Assembly: GCA_012511885.1 (NCBI GenBank)
Contig: JAAZFE010000110.1
Coordinates: 1-34,394 of the forward strand
DNA length: 34,394 nucleotides
DNA from: Lentisphaerota bacterium
Lineage (GTDB): Bacteria; Verrucomicrobiota; Kiritimatiellia; CAIQIC01; Lenti-01
Direction of reading: 5' to 3'
In this document: positions 9,990 to 34,394 of the stretch, in pieces
Numbering within the stretch: the first letter of the stretch is position 1
Layout: the number at the start of each line of letters is the position of its first letter
Notes under the pieces: generated by a model
What the model was told of the DNA's origin: nothing
The model's input: only the letters and a program-made list of their open reading frames with translations
Databases searched by the model: none
Program-made: the position numbers and the translations under genes

Positions 9990-10690
9990 CCTCCTCCCGC
10001 TTGCGCTCCTCTTGCGTCCCTCGCGCCTCTTGCGTTAAAAATGCGCCCCAGCGCCAACGGTAGGTGCCTGTCCGCCTCGGGCGAAACGCATCGCGAGACA
10101 TCCCCCCCCCAAAAACAACCGCCACCCCCTATGCTACCTTGCGTTACAAGGTACCATGCCCCCCCTCCCCTCCTCTTCCCCTTTTGCGTTTTTTGCGCGC
10201 TTTGTGGTTCCCCAAAAATCCCGCAATCTCGCATTCCCCCCCTCCCCCATTTCCTCCTGCCCCCCCTTTTGTGTTTTTTGCGCTCTTTGTGGTTACAAAA
10301 ATCTCTTCCCCCGCTTGCGCTCCTCTCGCGCTCCTCGCGCCTCTTGCGTTAAAAAATGCGCCCCAGCGCCAACGGTAGGTGCCTGTCCGCCTCGGGCGAA
10401 ACGCATCGCGAGACATCCCCCCCCAAAAAACAACCGCCACCCCCCATGCTACCTTGCGTTACAAGGTACCATGCCCCCCTTCCCCTCCTCTTCCCCTTTT
10501 GCGTTTTTTGCGCTCTCTGTGGTTCCCCGAAATCCCGCAATCTCGCATTCCCCCCCTCCCCCATTTCCTCCTGCCCCCCCCTTTTGTGTTTTTTGTGCTC
10601 TTTGTGGTTACAAAAATCTCTTCCCCCGCTTGCGCTCCTCTTGCGTCCCTCGCGCCTTTTGCGTTAAAAATGCGCCTCCCTGGCACTTCG
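9990..10690. repeat. ~315-bp tandem repeat, about 2.2 copies
   Basis: 'taggtgcctgtccgcctcgggcgaaacgcatcgcgagacatcccccccc' at 10061 and 10376 (period 315); 'atgctaccttgcgttacaaggtaccatgcccccc' and 'tttgtggttacaaaaatctcttcccccgcttgcgctcctc' recur at the same spacing. Confidence 0.9.
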
Positions 10691-13186: not shown

Positions 13187-13414
13187 GCCGCTATAATTTG
13201 GCGTTCTGTTTACCATCACCAGCCCAGACCGCGCGACAAACGCTCCCGCGCTCGCCCCGCGAGTCTCTCTATTCTTTGTCACATCTTCAATGGACATTGG
13301 ATATAATCCAATCCCTGATGGAAAAGTGCACCACGTTCTCAGAAATTGCAAGTGCAAATTTAACCGTTTTTTCATTTTTCAAGTTCACCCTTCGCGTCTC
13401 CACATGAGCCTGGA

Positions 13415-13600
13415 TGATTCACGCGACAAGTCCGGCCCGGATGCAAGGCGGGCGGGGTGAAGCTGTATGGACAACCTGCGAGCCCCGAATAACGCCGCAG
13501 ACGGGTTGGAATCGTCGCGCCGAAGGGCAACATGGCTGAAAATTGATGAAAACCTGAACCTGCTACTCTGCAGTGAAATAAAACCGTTTCAGCCATGTTG
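13415..13600 (+). other. Candidate degraded structured RNA, possibly a group II intron 5' fragment
   Basis: 'cacgcgacaagtccggcccggatgcaaggcgggcggggtgaagctgtatggacaacctgcgagccccgaataacgccgcagacgggttggaatcg' resembles intron domain I style sequence by eye only; no RT ORF and no domain V recognised nearby. Confidence 0.25.
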
Positions 13601-13686
13601 ATGAATAATCCAGGTGAGACCGTCTGCTCCCCATAAACGCGCCAGCGTGTATGTAGTTTGTCCTCTCGCAACCGCGCCCCCCCCCC

Positions 13687-13894
13687 CCTCGACTCTCGAC
13701 ACTCAAAAACAGCCATTTTTGCCCCGTTTTCAGGAAATTTTGCTAGTTTTTGACGAATTTGGACCGTTTTGGCCGATTTTTTCTCGTTGTGGGCCGTTTT
13801 CCACCGTTTCCACAATTGCCGCCCCCCCCCCCGCGGGGCGCTCCCAAAGAAAACTATCTGCCCGATCCGTCTGATCCGACTGATCTGTCTGATC
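13687..13894. repeat. Composite intergenic element I: GACTCTC repeats + phased T-tracts + 9-bp GATC array
   Basis: T-tract starts at 13716,13727,13738,13747,13758,13767,13777,13787,13797,13807; GATC at 13864,13873,13882,13891. Confidence 0.85.
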
Positions 13895-14052
13895 GTTGCA
13901 TCTGGCGCAGCCGCGCACGCTTCCCCGCTTCTTCTATGCTGGCTCCGCGACGGGGCGGCTCAATATCTTAGGTTTTGTGTGCCGCAGCCCATTCATCCAA
14001 ATTTGTAACCCAATCCGCCCATATTTCTCCACATAACTTCAAAAAATTGCAA

Positions 14053-14138
14053 TTTTCCCATGTTTTATTCCCAAAATCGTTCGTTTTTACCCATTTCTGC
14101 TCCTTTTTTGCCCGTTTTTGCCCGGTTTTGCCCGGTTT
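14053..14138. repeat. Phased A/T-tract array
   Basis: Tract starts at 14053,14063,14073(A),14084,14094,14104,14115,14126,14136. Confidence 0.85.
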
Positions 14139-14383
14139 CGCGTCCGTCTCGATTTGTTTCTGGGCGAAAAAATCTTTCGCCCCTACCCCCCCTGCGGCCC
14201 CCGAGCCGCCCCCCAAAAATAATTTGTGTCCATTCGCGTCCATTCGCGGTTCAAACCCCATTCTTTGTGTTTTTTGTGTTCTTTGTGGTTCCCCAAAAAT
14301 CCGCAATCGACCATTCCCGCACTCTCGCAATCTCGCAATTCTCTCTCCCTTTTCTCCTGCACTTCGGCTATAATGCGTCCCTT

Positions 14384-15136
14384 ATGAACATACTGCACAG
14401 CCAAACGGTGGAATATCTCCGTTATCTCAAAGAACAGGGCATCACCCATGTTCCGGGTACCAGCAAACAGCCCGTCACGCCGGTCAAACGCGCTCCAAAA
14501 GCTGCCCCTGATCCCGCCCCCGCCGCCCCTCCTCTTGCCGGCGCCGCGCCACGAGGCGGCTTGACCCAGTCGGTGGAATTGCAGCTCATCACCGACGAAG
14601 TGGCCGCCTGCCGACGCTGTCTCCTGCACCGCACCCGCACCCGGACCGTCCCCGGTCAGGGCGCTCTGCGGCCCGATGTCATGTTTATCGGCGAAGGTCC
14701 CGGCGCCAACGAGGACGAGCAGGGCATTGCTTTTGTGGGCCGGGCGGGACAACTGCTCACCCGCATGATCGCCGCCATGGGCTACACCCGCGACGAAGTG
14801 TTTATCGGCAACATCGTCAAATGCCGCCCCCCCGGCAACCGCGTTCCCTCGCCCGAGGAAATGAACGATTGCATCCCCTATCTCAAACGGCAAATCGCGA
14901 TTATCCAGCCCAAACTGATCGTCTGCCTTGGCGCCACGGCGGCCCGCGGCCTCGTGCAGGAAACTCTGCCCATCGGCAAAGCACGGGGACAATGGCGCGA
15001 ATTCGAGGGTATTCCCGTCATGTTGACCTTCCACCCCGCCTATCTCCTGCGCGACGGCACCAAAAAAGGCGCCTGCTGGTCCGATCTCAAGGCCGTCCTG
15101 GCCCGCCTGGGCAAAACCCCGCCCAAACCCGCGTAG
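14384..15136 (+). CDS. Uracil-DNA glycosylase, family 4 (4Fe-4S type)
   Basis: [60 protein letters not shown] motifs; start trimmed to ATG 14384. Confidence 0.93.
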
Positions 15137-15151
15137 GCCCAGCTCGGAAAA

Positions 15152-15334
15152 CCCTCGACGCTCGACCCCCGGCTCTCGAAAAACGCCAACAACGCCGTTT
15201 GGGGTCAAATTCTGCCTGTTTTTGACGAATTTGGGCTGTTTTTGGTCCATTTTTGGCCGATTTTGGCCGATTTTGGACGTTTTTGGGCAGCTTCCGCCCC
15301 GATCTGTCTGATCCGACTGATCTGTCTGATCATT
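15152..15334. repeat. Composite intergenic element II: GACNCTC-type repeats + phased T-tracts + 9-bp GATC array
   Basis: T-tract starts 15198,15210,15219,15230,15239,15250,15261,15271,15280; GATC at 15301,15310,15319,15328. Confidence 0.85.
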
Positions 15335-15420: not shown

Positions 15421-17205
15421 ATGAAAAAACTCCCGGTTTTGTTGCTGACGTTGCTTGTGTCCCTCCGGTTGGCTGGGGCCGATTCGCCCCCGCTCGGGTC
15501 TTTCCCCACCGCCAGCGGCTCGCTGTTCCGGGTGTGGGCGCCCTTCGCCAAATCGGCCGCCGTGGCCGGCGAGTTCTCGGACTGGCAGCCGCGCGACATG
15601 GACGCCATGGACACGGACGGCATCTGGAGTCTTTTTCTCCCCGAGGCCCGCGAAGGGCAGATGTACAAGTTCATCTTTAACGGCGACAACTGGAAACGTG
15701 ATCCGCGCTCGCGGCAGGTGGAACACTCCGACGGCAATTCCATCCTGTATGACCCCGCGGCCTTTGACTGGGGCGCGGTCCGCCCGCCCGAGATGCCGCG
15801 CGAGGATCTGGTGCTCTATCAACTGCATGTGGGCACATTTGCCGGTTGCGCGCCTCCGGCCACGTTCGACGACGCGATCAGTCGCCTCGATTATCTGAGC
15901 GGCCTGGGAATCACCGGCATTCAACTGATGCCGGTCAACGAGTTCCCGGGCGGGCTGAGCTGGGGGTACAATCCCGCCGACCTTTTCGCCATTGAAAGCG
16001 ACTACGGCGGGCCCGACGCCCTCAAGCGGTTCGTGCGCGCCGCCCACGCCCGCGGCATGGTTGTGCTGGCCGATATCGTCCATAACCACTATGGCCCCAC
16101 GGACCTCGACCTGTGGCGTTTCGATGGCTGGCACGAACAGGACTTCGGCGGCATCTACTTCTATTGCGACAGCCGAATCCATACTCCCTGGGGCTCGACC
16201 CGCCCCGATTTCGGTCGGCCCGAGGTGCGCGCGTTCATCCGCGACCAAGTCTTCATGTTCCTCGAAGAATATCGCCTGGACGGCTTCCGCTGGGACTCGG
16301 TTTACAACATCCTCCACAGCGATCACGGCTTCAATCCGCAAGGACGCGACATGTTGCGCGAAATCAATATGGACATGGCCCAGACCCATCCGCACGCGCT
16401 GCGCGTGGCCGAGGACACCGGTTTCGAGCACGACCTCCATTTCCAGGCCCAATGGGACATCGGCCACCGCTGGGCGCTCTTCAACCAACTGTCCACCGCC
16501 CACGATCCCGAGCGCGATATGCACACGATTGCCGGCACCCTGACCGACTGGCCCGGATTCCAGCGCGTCATCTTTACCGAGGCGCATGACTATGTGGCCC
16601 ACATGAACGACCAGCGCAGCCGCGTGCCCTCCATGATTCATCCCGACGAACCCGAAAGCATCTGGGCGCGCAAGCGGGCCCTGCTCGGCGCCGCCATGAT
16701 CTTCACCACGCCGGGCATCCCCATGATTTTTCAGGGACAGGAGATGCTGGAAACGCAGGCCTTCCACGACGACACGCCCCTGCGCTGGGAACGCGCGCAG
16801 TCCCACGCTGGAACGGTGCGGGCCTACACCGATCTGATTCGTTTGCGGCGCAATCTTGACGAAACCACCCCCGGGCTGCGCGGCGACCAGGTGCGCGTGG
16901 ACCTGCTCGACAACGAGCGCAAGCTGATCGCCTTCTCCCGCTGGCAAAGCGACCGCCCGGACGAACCGACCTTCGTCGTGGCCAATTTTTCCGCCGTGGA
17001 CTATGCGGAGGACGCTCCCGTCATCCCGTTCCCGGCCCCCGGGTTGTGGCAACGACGCTTCAACAGCGACTCCACAGCCTATGCCGAGGATTTCGGCAAT
17101 CTGGGCCCCGAGAGCGTGGTCATCCAAGCCGACACTCCCGCCGCGCCCGTCCCCATGGGCCGCTACAGCCTGCAAATCTTCTCCAAACTTCCCCCGGCTG
17201 AATAA
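15421..17205 (+). CDS. Secreted GH13 family alpha-glucan-acting enzyme (branching enzyme/trehalohydrolase-like)
   Basis: Signal peptide MKKLPVLLLTLLVSLRLAGA; E-set/CBM48-like N-terminus; LADIVHNHYG, GFRWDSVYNIL, RVAEDTGF, FTEAHDYVAH GH13 motifs. Confidence 0.9.
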   Translation: MKKLPVLLLTLLVSLRLAGADSPPLGSFPTASGSLFRVWAPFAKSAAVAGEFSDWQPRDMDAMDTDGIWSLFLPEAREGQMYKFIFNGDNWKRDPRSRQVEHSDGNSILYDPAAFDWGAVRPPEMPREDLVLYQLHVGTFAGCAPPATFDDAISRLDYLSGLGITGIQLMPVNEFPGGLSWGYNPADLFAIESDYGGPDALKRFVRAAHARGMVVLADIVHNHYGPTDLDLWRFDGWHEQDFGGIYFYCDSRIHTPWGSTRPDFGRPEVRAFIRDQVFMFLEEYRLDGFRWDSVYNILHSDHGFNPQGRDMLREINMDMAQTHPHALRVAEDTGFEHDLHFQAQWDIGHRWALFNQLSTAHDPERDMHTIAGTLTDWPGFQRVIFTEAHDYVAHMNDQRSRVPSMIHPDEPESIWARKRALLGAAMIFTTPGIPMIFQGQEMLETQAFHDDTPLRWERAQSHAGTVRAYTDLIRLRRNLDETTPGLRGDQVRVDLLDNERKLIAFSRWQSDRPDEPTFVVANFSAVDYAEDAPVIPFPAPGLWQRRFNSDSTAYAEDFGNLGPESVVIQADTPAAPVPMGRYSLQIFSKLPPAE

Positions 17206-17226: not shown

Positions 17227-17435
17227 AGGACTCGACTCTCGACACCCGACTCGCGACTCTCAAAAAGCGCCGTTTTTGACGCATTGGGGACGTTTTTGGG
17301 CAATTTGGGACCGTTTTTGGCCATTTGGGGCGTTTTTGGCCCGTTTTGGCCTTTTCAGCCGTTACCGGCAGTTGCCGACAAACCCCGTCTCGATCTGTCC
17401 GATCAGTCGGATCCGTCTGATCTGTCTGATCTTTT
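17227..17435. repeat. Composite intergenic element III: GACTCTC repeats + phased T-tracts + 9-bp GATC array
   Basis: Main T-tracts at 17273,17293,17314,17333 alternating with TTGGG half-steps at 17285,17304,17324; GATC at 17392,17401,17410,17419,17428. Confidence 0.85.
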
Positions 17436-17502: not shown

Positions 17503-18183
17503 TCAGGCCAGAAGGCCGTCGCGCAACTCGACATGCCGTCGGCAATAGCCGGCCAGCGCCTCGTTGTGGGTCACGATGATCAGGGTGAGTCCCTCGCCAG
17601 CGGCCAGCTCGAAGAGATAGCGCAGGACATCCTCGCCGGTTTTGGAGTCGAGGTTGCCGGTGGGCTCGTCGGCCAGAAGCAGCTCGGGCGCGTTCATCAG
17701 GGCGCGGGCCAGCGCCGCGCGCTGCTGTTCGCCACCGGACAGCTCGTTGGGCCGGTGCGGGGCGCGTTCGGCCAGCCCCACCCGATCGAGGAGCATGGCG
17801 GCCCGCTCGCGCAGGCGCTTGCCGTGTAAAAACGCGCCGTGGGCGCTCAGCCCGGGCAGGAGCACGTTCTCGAGCACGGTCAATTCCGGCAGCAGGTGAT
17901 AGGCCTGGAACACAAATCCGATGTTGCGCGCGCGCAGCGCGCTGCGCTCGCGGTCCCGCGCGGCATAGAGGTCGCGTCCGCGGTAGAGGACGCGTCCGGC
18001 GGTGGGCCGGTCCAGGCCGCCCATGATCTGCAGCAGGGTGCTCTTGCCCGCGCCGCTCATGCCGGTGATGGCCAGCGATTCGCCCGCGGCCACGCGCAGG
18101 GAAACGCCGCGCAGCACCTCGATCCGGCGCGAACCCATCGGGAACGAGCGGTGGACCTCCACAACGTCCAGCAGATCAGTCAT
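17503..18183 (-). CDS. lolD: Lipoprotein-releasing ABC transporter ATP-binding protein
   Basis: Walker [46 protein letters not shown]; overlaps the LolC/E gene. Confidence 0.93.
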
Positions 18184-28613: not shown

Positions 28614-28716
28614 GTTTCCACAGCGTGGAAAAACGAAGCAAGAGTTTTCCACGCCATGGAAAGTTTTTCGCCAAGTTTTCCACGCCATGGAAAAAAGTTT
28701 TCCACGCCGTGGAAAA
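28614..28716. repeat. Palindrome array, cluster 1 (4 copies of TTTTCCACGCCRTGGAAAA-type)
   Basis: CCA-core starts 28618, 28649, 28680, 28702. Confidence 0.92.
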
Positions 28717-28726
28717 CTACAGCCCC

Positions 28727-28862
28727 AAAAAACGCCCCCCAAACACCCATTTCGCCCCAGCCCAAAAAACACCCAAATAATGCCAAAAACACTGTATTTC
28801 AGCCGTTTTGGGCCCATTTTTGCCCTCAAAACACCCTTTTTTGCCCCGTTTTTGACCCGAAA
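28727..28862. repeat. Phased A/T-tract block between the palindrome clusters
   Basis: A/T tracts at 28727,28741,28750,28764,28775,28785,28797,28806,28817,28828,28837,28849. Confidence 0.75.
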
Positions 28863-28863
28863 C

Positions 28864-28935
28864 TTTTCCACGCCATGGAAAGTTTTTTTGGGATTTTTCC
28901 ACGCTATGGAAAATAGTTTTCCACGCCGTGGAAAA
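28864..28935. repeat. Palindrome array, cluster 2 (3 copies)
   Basis: CCA-core starts 28868, 28899, 28921; same 31/22-bp spacing as cluster 1. Confidence 0.92.
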
Positions 28936-34107: not shown

Positions 34108-34267
34108 CTTTCGCCTGCTGAATTCAATATCATGCCAGCATCCTAACCAAATAGTAACAATCAGGGAAAGCCTATACCCCATACGAAGACCGCCTGAGTT
34201 CCGAAATGGGACACCCGGGAAGCTTGCTGTTTTTGGACGAATAGATGCTGTTCAATTGAGTAAAACA

Positions 34268-34394
34268 GGTTCTTCGTAATATTTTATGGTGGGAGCGGGT
34301 TTGTGAGTGTTGAGTCACTGTCCGTTTTTTGTCCATGATGAGGCATGAATACAACCAATAAACATTACGCGCAGTTACTGGGTCTTGTTGCCCC
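34268..34394 (+). mobile_element. Probable left end of an ISL3-like insertion sequence with the start of its transposase
   Basis: GGTTCTTCGTAATATTTTATGG resembles ISL3 terminal repeats; ORF from 34345 MNTTNKHYAQLLGLVAP... resembles the N-terminus of ISL3 transposases. Truncated by the window edge. Confidence 0.5.

Follow-up and report, generated by a model that had tools for sequence, protein, structure and literature searches.

Helically phased A/T-tract arrays in the intergenic DNA of a Lentisphaerota bacterium, with predicted curvature and in-register insertion of an IS30-family element

Periodic A-tracts in bacterial genomes, with a proposed role in the nucleoid, are already known (Tong and Mrazek 2014, PMC3940949). 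In cyanobacteria a strong signal at about 11 bp lies mostly in coding DNA and periods of about 10 bp tend to be intergenic (PMC4132750). In C. elegans the Periodic An/Tn Clusters (PATCs) are non-coding, strongly periodic A/T clusters dispersed through the genome (PMC7725773). An anti-silencing effect is a further mark of PATCs. Among insertion sequences, some are known to target REP sequences (PMC1525189), curved or AT-rich targets were reported for IS2, IS231 and IS10 (PMC3299598), AT-rich target sites were described for ISApl1 of the IS30 family (PMC10916398), and for IS30 itself insertion into hot spots or into its own ends is described (PMC9333248).

The DNA analysed here is a stretch of 34,394 nucleotides from a Lentisphaerota bacterium (contig JAAZFE010000110.1; the window). 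It resembles the prokaryotic A-tract periodicity in its helical-phase A-tracts, predicted curvature and proposed nucleoid role (PMC3940949, PMC4132750), but in contrast to the diffuse, mainly coding cyanobacterial signal at about 11 bp (PMC4132750) it carries discrete dense arrays of 5-12 tracts that are intergenic and have a period of 10.3 bp. Like the PATCs of C. elegans (PMC7725773), these are periodic An/Tn clusters in non-coding DNA, dispersed through the genome, whereas the arrays here are bacterial, mostly under 150 bp each and G+C-spaced, and the likeness is not one of descent. As with REP-targeting IS elements (PMC1525189) a transposase lands on a repeated extragenic feature, yet the target here is the helical phase of A/T-tracts within variable sequence and not a palindromic repeat. 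The preference for bent or AT-rich targets is shared with IS231, IS10, IS2 and ISApl1 (PMC3299598, PMC10916398); unlike those cases, a register of 10.2 bp can be followed for 60 bp or more beyond both ends, and insertion falls in a GC spacer at a fixed distance to the nearest tract. Our search of the open-access literature found neither dense, phased intergenic arrays described for this group nor an IS inserted in register with such arrays. The arrays of the window and the features around them are the following.

13705 to 13809, forward strand: array A, AAAAA followed by T-tracts at 13716, 13727, 13738, 13747, 13758, 13767, 13777, (13787), 13797 and 13807
14041 to 14138, forward strand: array B, AAAAAA at 14041, AAAA at 14073 and T-tracts over 14053-14136, in a single helical phase
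14384 to 15136, forward strand: uracil-DNA glycosylase (UDG) superfamily gene (PF03167, E 9.5e-39), 3' of arrays A and B
15198 to 15284, forward strand: array C, T-tracts at 15198, (15210), 15219, 15230, 15239, 15250, 15261, 15271 and 15280
15421 to 17205, forward strand: GH13 alpha-amylase / CBM48 glycosidase gene (PF00128, PF02922), between arrays C and D
17262 to 17355, forward strand: array D, phased tracts with a chain of 6 at 17293-17347
17503 to 18183, reverse strand: ABC transporter ATPase gene (PF00005, E 2e-35), convergent to array D
28741 to 28880, no strand assigned: weaker AAA/TTT periodicity of 10-10.7 bp, adjoining TTTTCCACGCCATGGAAAA palindromes

Arrays A and B lie between a divergent gene pair, array C between the UDG and GH13/CBM48 genes, and array D between the convergent GH13 and ABC ATPase genes. 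The initial annotation had described arrays A, B and C by their tract starts and spacings, and every one of these is present as positioned; the tracts are generally T-tracts as it stated, except that 13787 and 15210 are TT only and 14073 is AAAA, so that array B mixes A- and T-tracts. Tract spacing is 10.1-10.3 bp in all three. Their longest phased chains of T3+ tracts number 7, 6 and 7 (A, B and C), lengths that were matched in 0/1000, 2/1000 and 0/1000 dinucleotide shuffles of each local stretch. A Fourier analysis of AA/TT against shuffled sequence, one of the two checks on which the initial claim was to stand or fall, gave peaks at 10.1, 10.3 and 10.3 bp with a power of 22, 18 and 27, all above the maxima reached by shuffles in the 9.8-10.8 band (11, 13 and 12). 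Array D, the weaker stretch near 28741-28880 and the genome-wide extent of the arrays were missing from that annotation. In the weaker stretch the cluster-level phase coherence is no higher than random; the TTTTCCACGCCATGGAAAA palindromes beside it are repeated at 28615-28935, and their general form occurs 68 times in the sample with both strands counted.

The predicted intrinsic curvature is supported by a dinucleotide-wedge model (Bolshoy/Trifonov values, 90-bp stretches), in which arrays A, B and C are the top-ranked 90-bp stretches of the window at 121-147 degrees per 90 bp. Array A is predicted to bend by about 134 degrees per 90 bp. The highest predicted value of the window, 147 degrees per 90 bp, belongs to array B (from 14051), and array D reaches only 46 degrees. 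A set of 44 arrays averages 114 degrees, against 36 degrees (sd 20) for random genome 90-mers, and 38 of the 44 exceed the random 99th percentile; a control repeat with an out-of-phase 12-bp unit gives 35 degrees. The arrays thus have two marks of phased A-tract curved DNA, namely A/T tracts that follow the helical period over several turns above chance and a predicted bend well over the genome background.

The genome is a MAG of 2.49 Mb in 166 contigs, 84.6% complete and about 62% G+C. Array statistics were obtained from about 0.78 Mb of stretches (4 short contigs excluded) together with pattern counts over the whole genome; the first 20 stretches had been picked for having hits, and L021-L040 form the unbiased sample. 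The in-phase triple TTTTN{6,7}TTTTN{6,7}TTTT occurs 605 times in the whole genome, versus 4 times for the off-phase control TTTTN{10,11}TTTTN{10,11}TTTT. In the unbiased sample of 264 kb the distances between A4+/T4+ tracts form a comb at 10.3-10.4 bp that extends over at least six turns. Coding and intergenic DNA were separated with gene calls from a simple custom hexamer model, by which 195 in-phase triples of a sample of about 773 kb are intergenic and none falls within the 627 kb called coding. Under a looser definition (at least 4 T3+ tracts) 55 of 58 arrays are intergenic. Arrays of at least 5 tracts have a density of about 54 per Mb, and the four arrays of the window belong to a set of roughly a hundred intergenic patches of predicted bent DNA in this genome.

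How the tracts are spaced bears on what is conserved in them. Spacing averages 10.25 bp (sd 0.85) over 41 arrays. The variance of tract-to-tract distances goes from 0.72 at lag 1 to 1.07 at lag 7, where independent steps would give 5.06. Unequal tract lengths add some centre noise to the lag-1 value, so the point to retain is that cumulative drift is almost nil across seven turns although the spacers differ. The tracts act like jittered points on a lattice. It is established for A-tract structure that the narrow minor groove sits toward the 3' end of the tract. If the position of the minor groove is what is conserved, A-then-T pairs should therefore lie slightly wider and T-then-A pairs slightly closer than whole turns. 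The offsets from whole turns were +0.66 bp for A-T, -1.40 bp for T-A and -0.13 bp for same-strand pairs, with the signs expected for a bend locus toward the 3' end of each A-tract, though the base preceding a T-tract is often A, which may contribute. The same signs were found in the same-genus genome G047 and the distant genome G042; in G017 the signal is weaker, with an A-T offset near zero. The sequence thus shows that A- and T-tracts occupy one helical phase and are equivalent to each other.

These measurements weigh on the reading of the arrays as degenerate 10-bp minisatellites, in which a decamer TTTTTGGCCG would have been copied by slippage and then mutated, the phasing being a functionless by-product of unit length. 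Tandem Repeats Finder does report 10-20 bp repeats in portions of arrays B, C and D, there is a weak unit consensus G(N)CC(R), spacer identity is slightly higher within arrays (48% between adjacent units, 48-50% within arrays) than between them (42%), and the same intergenic regions hold other degenerate short repeats. Against it stand the missing drift over seven turns, the alternation of A- and T-tracts in one phase with opposite offsets and the non-integer mean period of about 10.3. We consider this reading unlikely. As the sole explanation a simple minisatellite is ruled out by the absence of drift and the equivalence of A and T phase, and it is retained as a rival for the origin of the arrays: a mutational origin of the units is possible, some intergenic space being filled with other degenerate repeats.

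The best explanation in our view is that the arrays are shape-constrained curved intergenic DNA, probably of chromosome-architectural use and exploited as a transposon landing site, and that conservation concerns the helical phase at which narrow minor-groove sites recur, not the sequence; we give this explanation as a whole a probability of roughly 0.6. Short A- or T-tracts alternate with variable G+C-rich spacers at a period held to about 10.3 bp, and the bends of successive tracts would add in one direction. The arrays would be physically bent inside the cell and natural selection would maintain their helical phase. The host might use them as plectoneme apices or HU-bound bends placed between genes, and an IS30 element may exploit them as harmless landing places.

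The position of arrays relative to genes is informative here. Their density is 0.62 per kb between convergent gene pairs and 0.13 per kb between divergent ones, an excess that is only suggestive since the counts are small (11 vs 2 arrays) and arrays of one island are not independent. We found no constant distance or orientation of arrays to flanking genes, and T-tracts lie on the coding strand in 8 cases and on the template strand in 12. That the arrays serve transcription, as curved promoter-upstream DNA or termination regions, would agree with their intergenic placement, the convergent excess and the link of curvature to promoters and terminators in the literature (cited in PMC4132750), but it is very improbable given the inconstant distance and orientation and the location of the gene-upstream arrays of the window well over 100 bp from start codons, outside -40 to -90. 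A promoter or UP-element reading was ruled out because neither distance nor strand relative to genes is constant. An RNA element was also rejected, with no Rfam match in the window and a mixed T orientation relative to genes.

A role in the nucleoid or in supercoiling would agree with arrays that are exclusively intergenic and keep no set distance to genes. Xenogeneic-silencer binding, which had been suggested at first, was not supported: a search limited to the H-NS (PF00816) and Lsr2 (PF11774) families detected neither in the 84.6% complete MAG, whereas two HU homologues were detected. A docking platform for an AT-binding nucleoid protein or a xenogeneic silencer would suit A-tract arrays within a G+C-rich genome, which favour minor-groove binders, and could draw on the HU homologues; we nevertheless hold it to be quite improbable, as the H-NS and Lsr2 families were not found and the flanking genes are ordinary (UDG, GH13, ABC transporter), not obviously foreign islands. 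An architectural host role for the curved arrays is the most likely one, because they are intergenic, stand in no fixed relation to gene starts, ends or strand, and occur in a genome where HU but not H-NS or Lsr2 was found. We identified no architectural protein of the host that is specific to them.

Further features were noted in the window and the sampled stretches. A MITE-like element of 206 bp (13409-13614) lies directly left of array A with inverted ends CCTGGATGATTCA / TGAATAATCCAGG; the 0.78 Mb sample contains this end 42 times, and several contig ends carry it too. On the T strand, arrays A, C and D are each followed by degenerate 9-bp repeats GATCTGTCT (13864-13895, 15300-15332 and 17387-17432), and GTCTGATC is enriched 3' of arrays. 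The palindrome AGTATTACGATTGTNCACAATCGTAATACT recurs in intergenic DNA near arrays (L015 at 2453, the 5' end of L029, and L172). At 9996-10676 and its surroundings there is a tandem repeat of 315 bp, built of degenerate text-like modules (cttgcgctcctcttgcgtccctcgcgcc...), within about 7 kb (4.9-12.2 kb) almost without confident genes. The window ends (34250-34394) in a repeated mobile-element end common to contig C132 (L135), and a repeat is therefore probably where the contig stops. The closest relatives of the UDG of the window come from MAGs of Kiritimatiellae, Lentisphaerae and Verrucomicrobia. A TATAAT at 14369-14374 lies only 9 bp before its start codon, and since TATA boxes are found at a like distance before UDG in L041, L042, L044 and L047 as well, leaderless transcription of this gene is suggested.

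Many arrays sit at contig ends, the cause being a repeated element. Going inward, its two ends read ...CGCGTTCCAGAGGCTATTGCAACAGGAGG and ...CTTGTTAGCCAGTAGCTATTGCAACACCAGGG. The reading frame beside the second end is a C-terminal fragment of 94 aa of an IS30 family transposase (NF033563, 100.4 bits with a cut-off of 80). Both end types carry GCTATTGCAAC reading inward as related inverted ends. From this shared sequence, their equal numbers (14 + 14) and an open frame starting inside the first end, the two appear to belong to one element. The bin lacks a full-length copy; contigs stop within the element, which leaves both flanks of an insertion unpaired. A short target duplication (2-3 bp) is a further mark of the IS30 family.

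A coherent phased array was present within the adjacent 120 bp at 17 of 28 IS30 junctions, whereas the background is 7.3% of intergenic 120-mers and 1.1% of all 120-mers (p = 5e-13 against the intergenic rate). With a stricter control of intergenic stretches ending 5 bp after a tract (14.7%) the enrichment gave a p of 3e-8. As both junctions can stem from the same insertion, left and right ends were also tested apart against the intergenic rate, with 11/14 (p 9e-11) and 6/14 (p 3e-4) respectively. The other 11 junctions fell short of the coherence threshold; in seven of these there were fewer than three tracts. By eye, other repeated contig-end elements showed no such association with arrays. 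The centre of the nearest tract lies 7.0-9.5 bp from the terminus at 14 of 14 left ends and 4.5-9.0 bp away at 13 of 14 right ends, and, moving away from the element at either end, the A/T fraction swings from about 0-0.3 to 0.7-1.0 and back with a period of 10.2 bp over 60 bp. The element therefore occupies a GC spacer, and the tracts around it keep a constant helical phase. Because of this fixed position relative to the tracts, the transposase, or a host factor acting with it, responds to the array, which suggests that at least one protein reads array shape.

The opposite relation, in which arrays were created or spread by mobile elements such as IS30-like or MITE-like modules, might explain the many arrays at contig ends made by the IS30-like element, the recurrent modules that flank arrays (CGACACTC, GCAGCTGC, GTCTGATC) and the one array pair that shares flanks at 92-95% identity. 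We give it hardly any credence, since most arrays are not close copies of each other and both the IS30-like transposase and the element end are absent from the genomes G047, G111, G117, G123 and G042, all of which bear arrays. The arrays therefore do not depend on the element; it is the element that uses the arrays. The transposase fragment matched distant IS30 relatives in G030, G158, G152 and G167.

Among relatives the ratio of in-phase to off-phase triples, 605:4 in this genome (G000), is 123:9 and 44:2 in the same-genus genomes G047 and G158, near 70:3 in several family members, and 497:25, 361:44 and 118:4 in the distant genomes G042, G017 and G167. Most of the 193 genomes of the class have few hits of either kind, or both kinds in similar number. 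Array density thus differs at least tenfold among relatives, from which we infer that it changes quickly, and this variation argues against an essential role. In G047 an array lies about 220 bp upstream of its UDG gene (L042, 5737-5781); arrays at the same gene are absent in L041 and L047. As other family members lack an array at UDG, positional conservation was dropped and we make no claim at the level of the site; array positions are not conserved among family members, so that selection at any one site is no more than a possibility.

Taken together, the arrays are real and genome-wide, are predicted to bend DNA and are used in register by at least one transposition system, and by inference they would also serve the host. 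We put forward more tentatively, with the odds somewhat against it, that a lineage of Kiritimatiellia maintains a genome-wide set of intergenic DNA-shape elements, a bacterial counterpart of PATCs with a helical code read by proteins, and that the IS30-like transposase would be its first identifiable reader, choosing targets by helix-register shape and not by sequence. What intrinsic curvature does in bacterial chromosomes has stayed obscure, as its signal is usually weak and distributed over coding DNA. In this genome it is gathered into discrete arrays that can be cloned, and natural transposon insertions show the position on the helix at which a protein engages them. The question of curvature thereby becomes testable, and attention is drawn to a transposase whose target preference is unusual in being based on shape.
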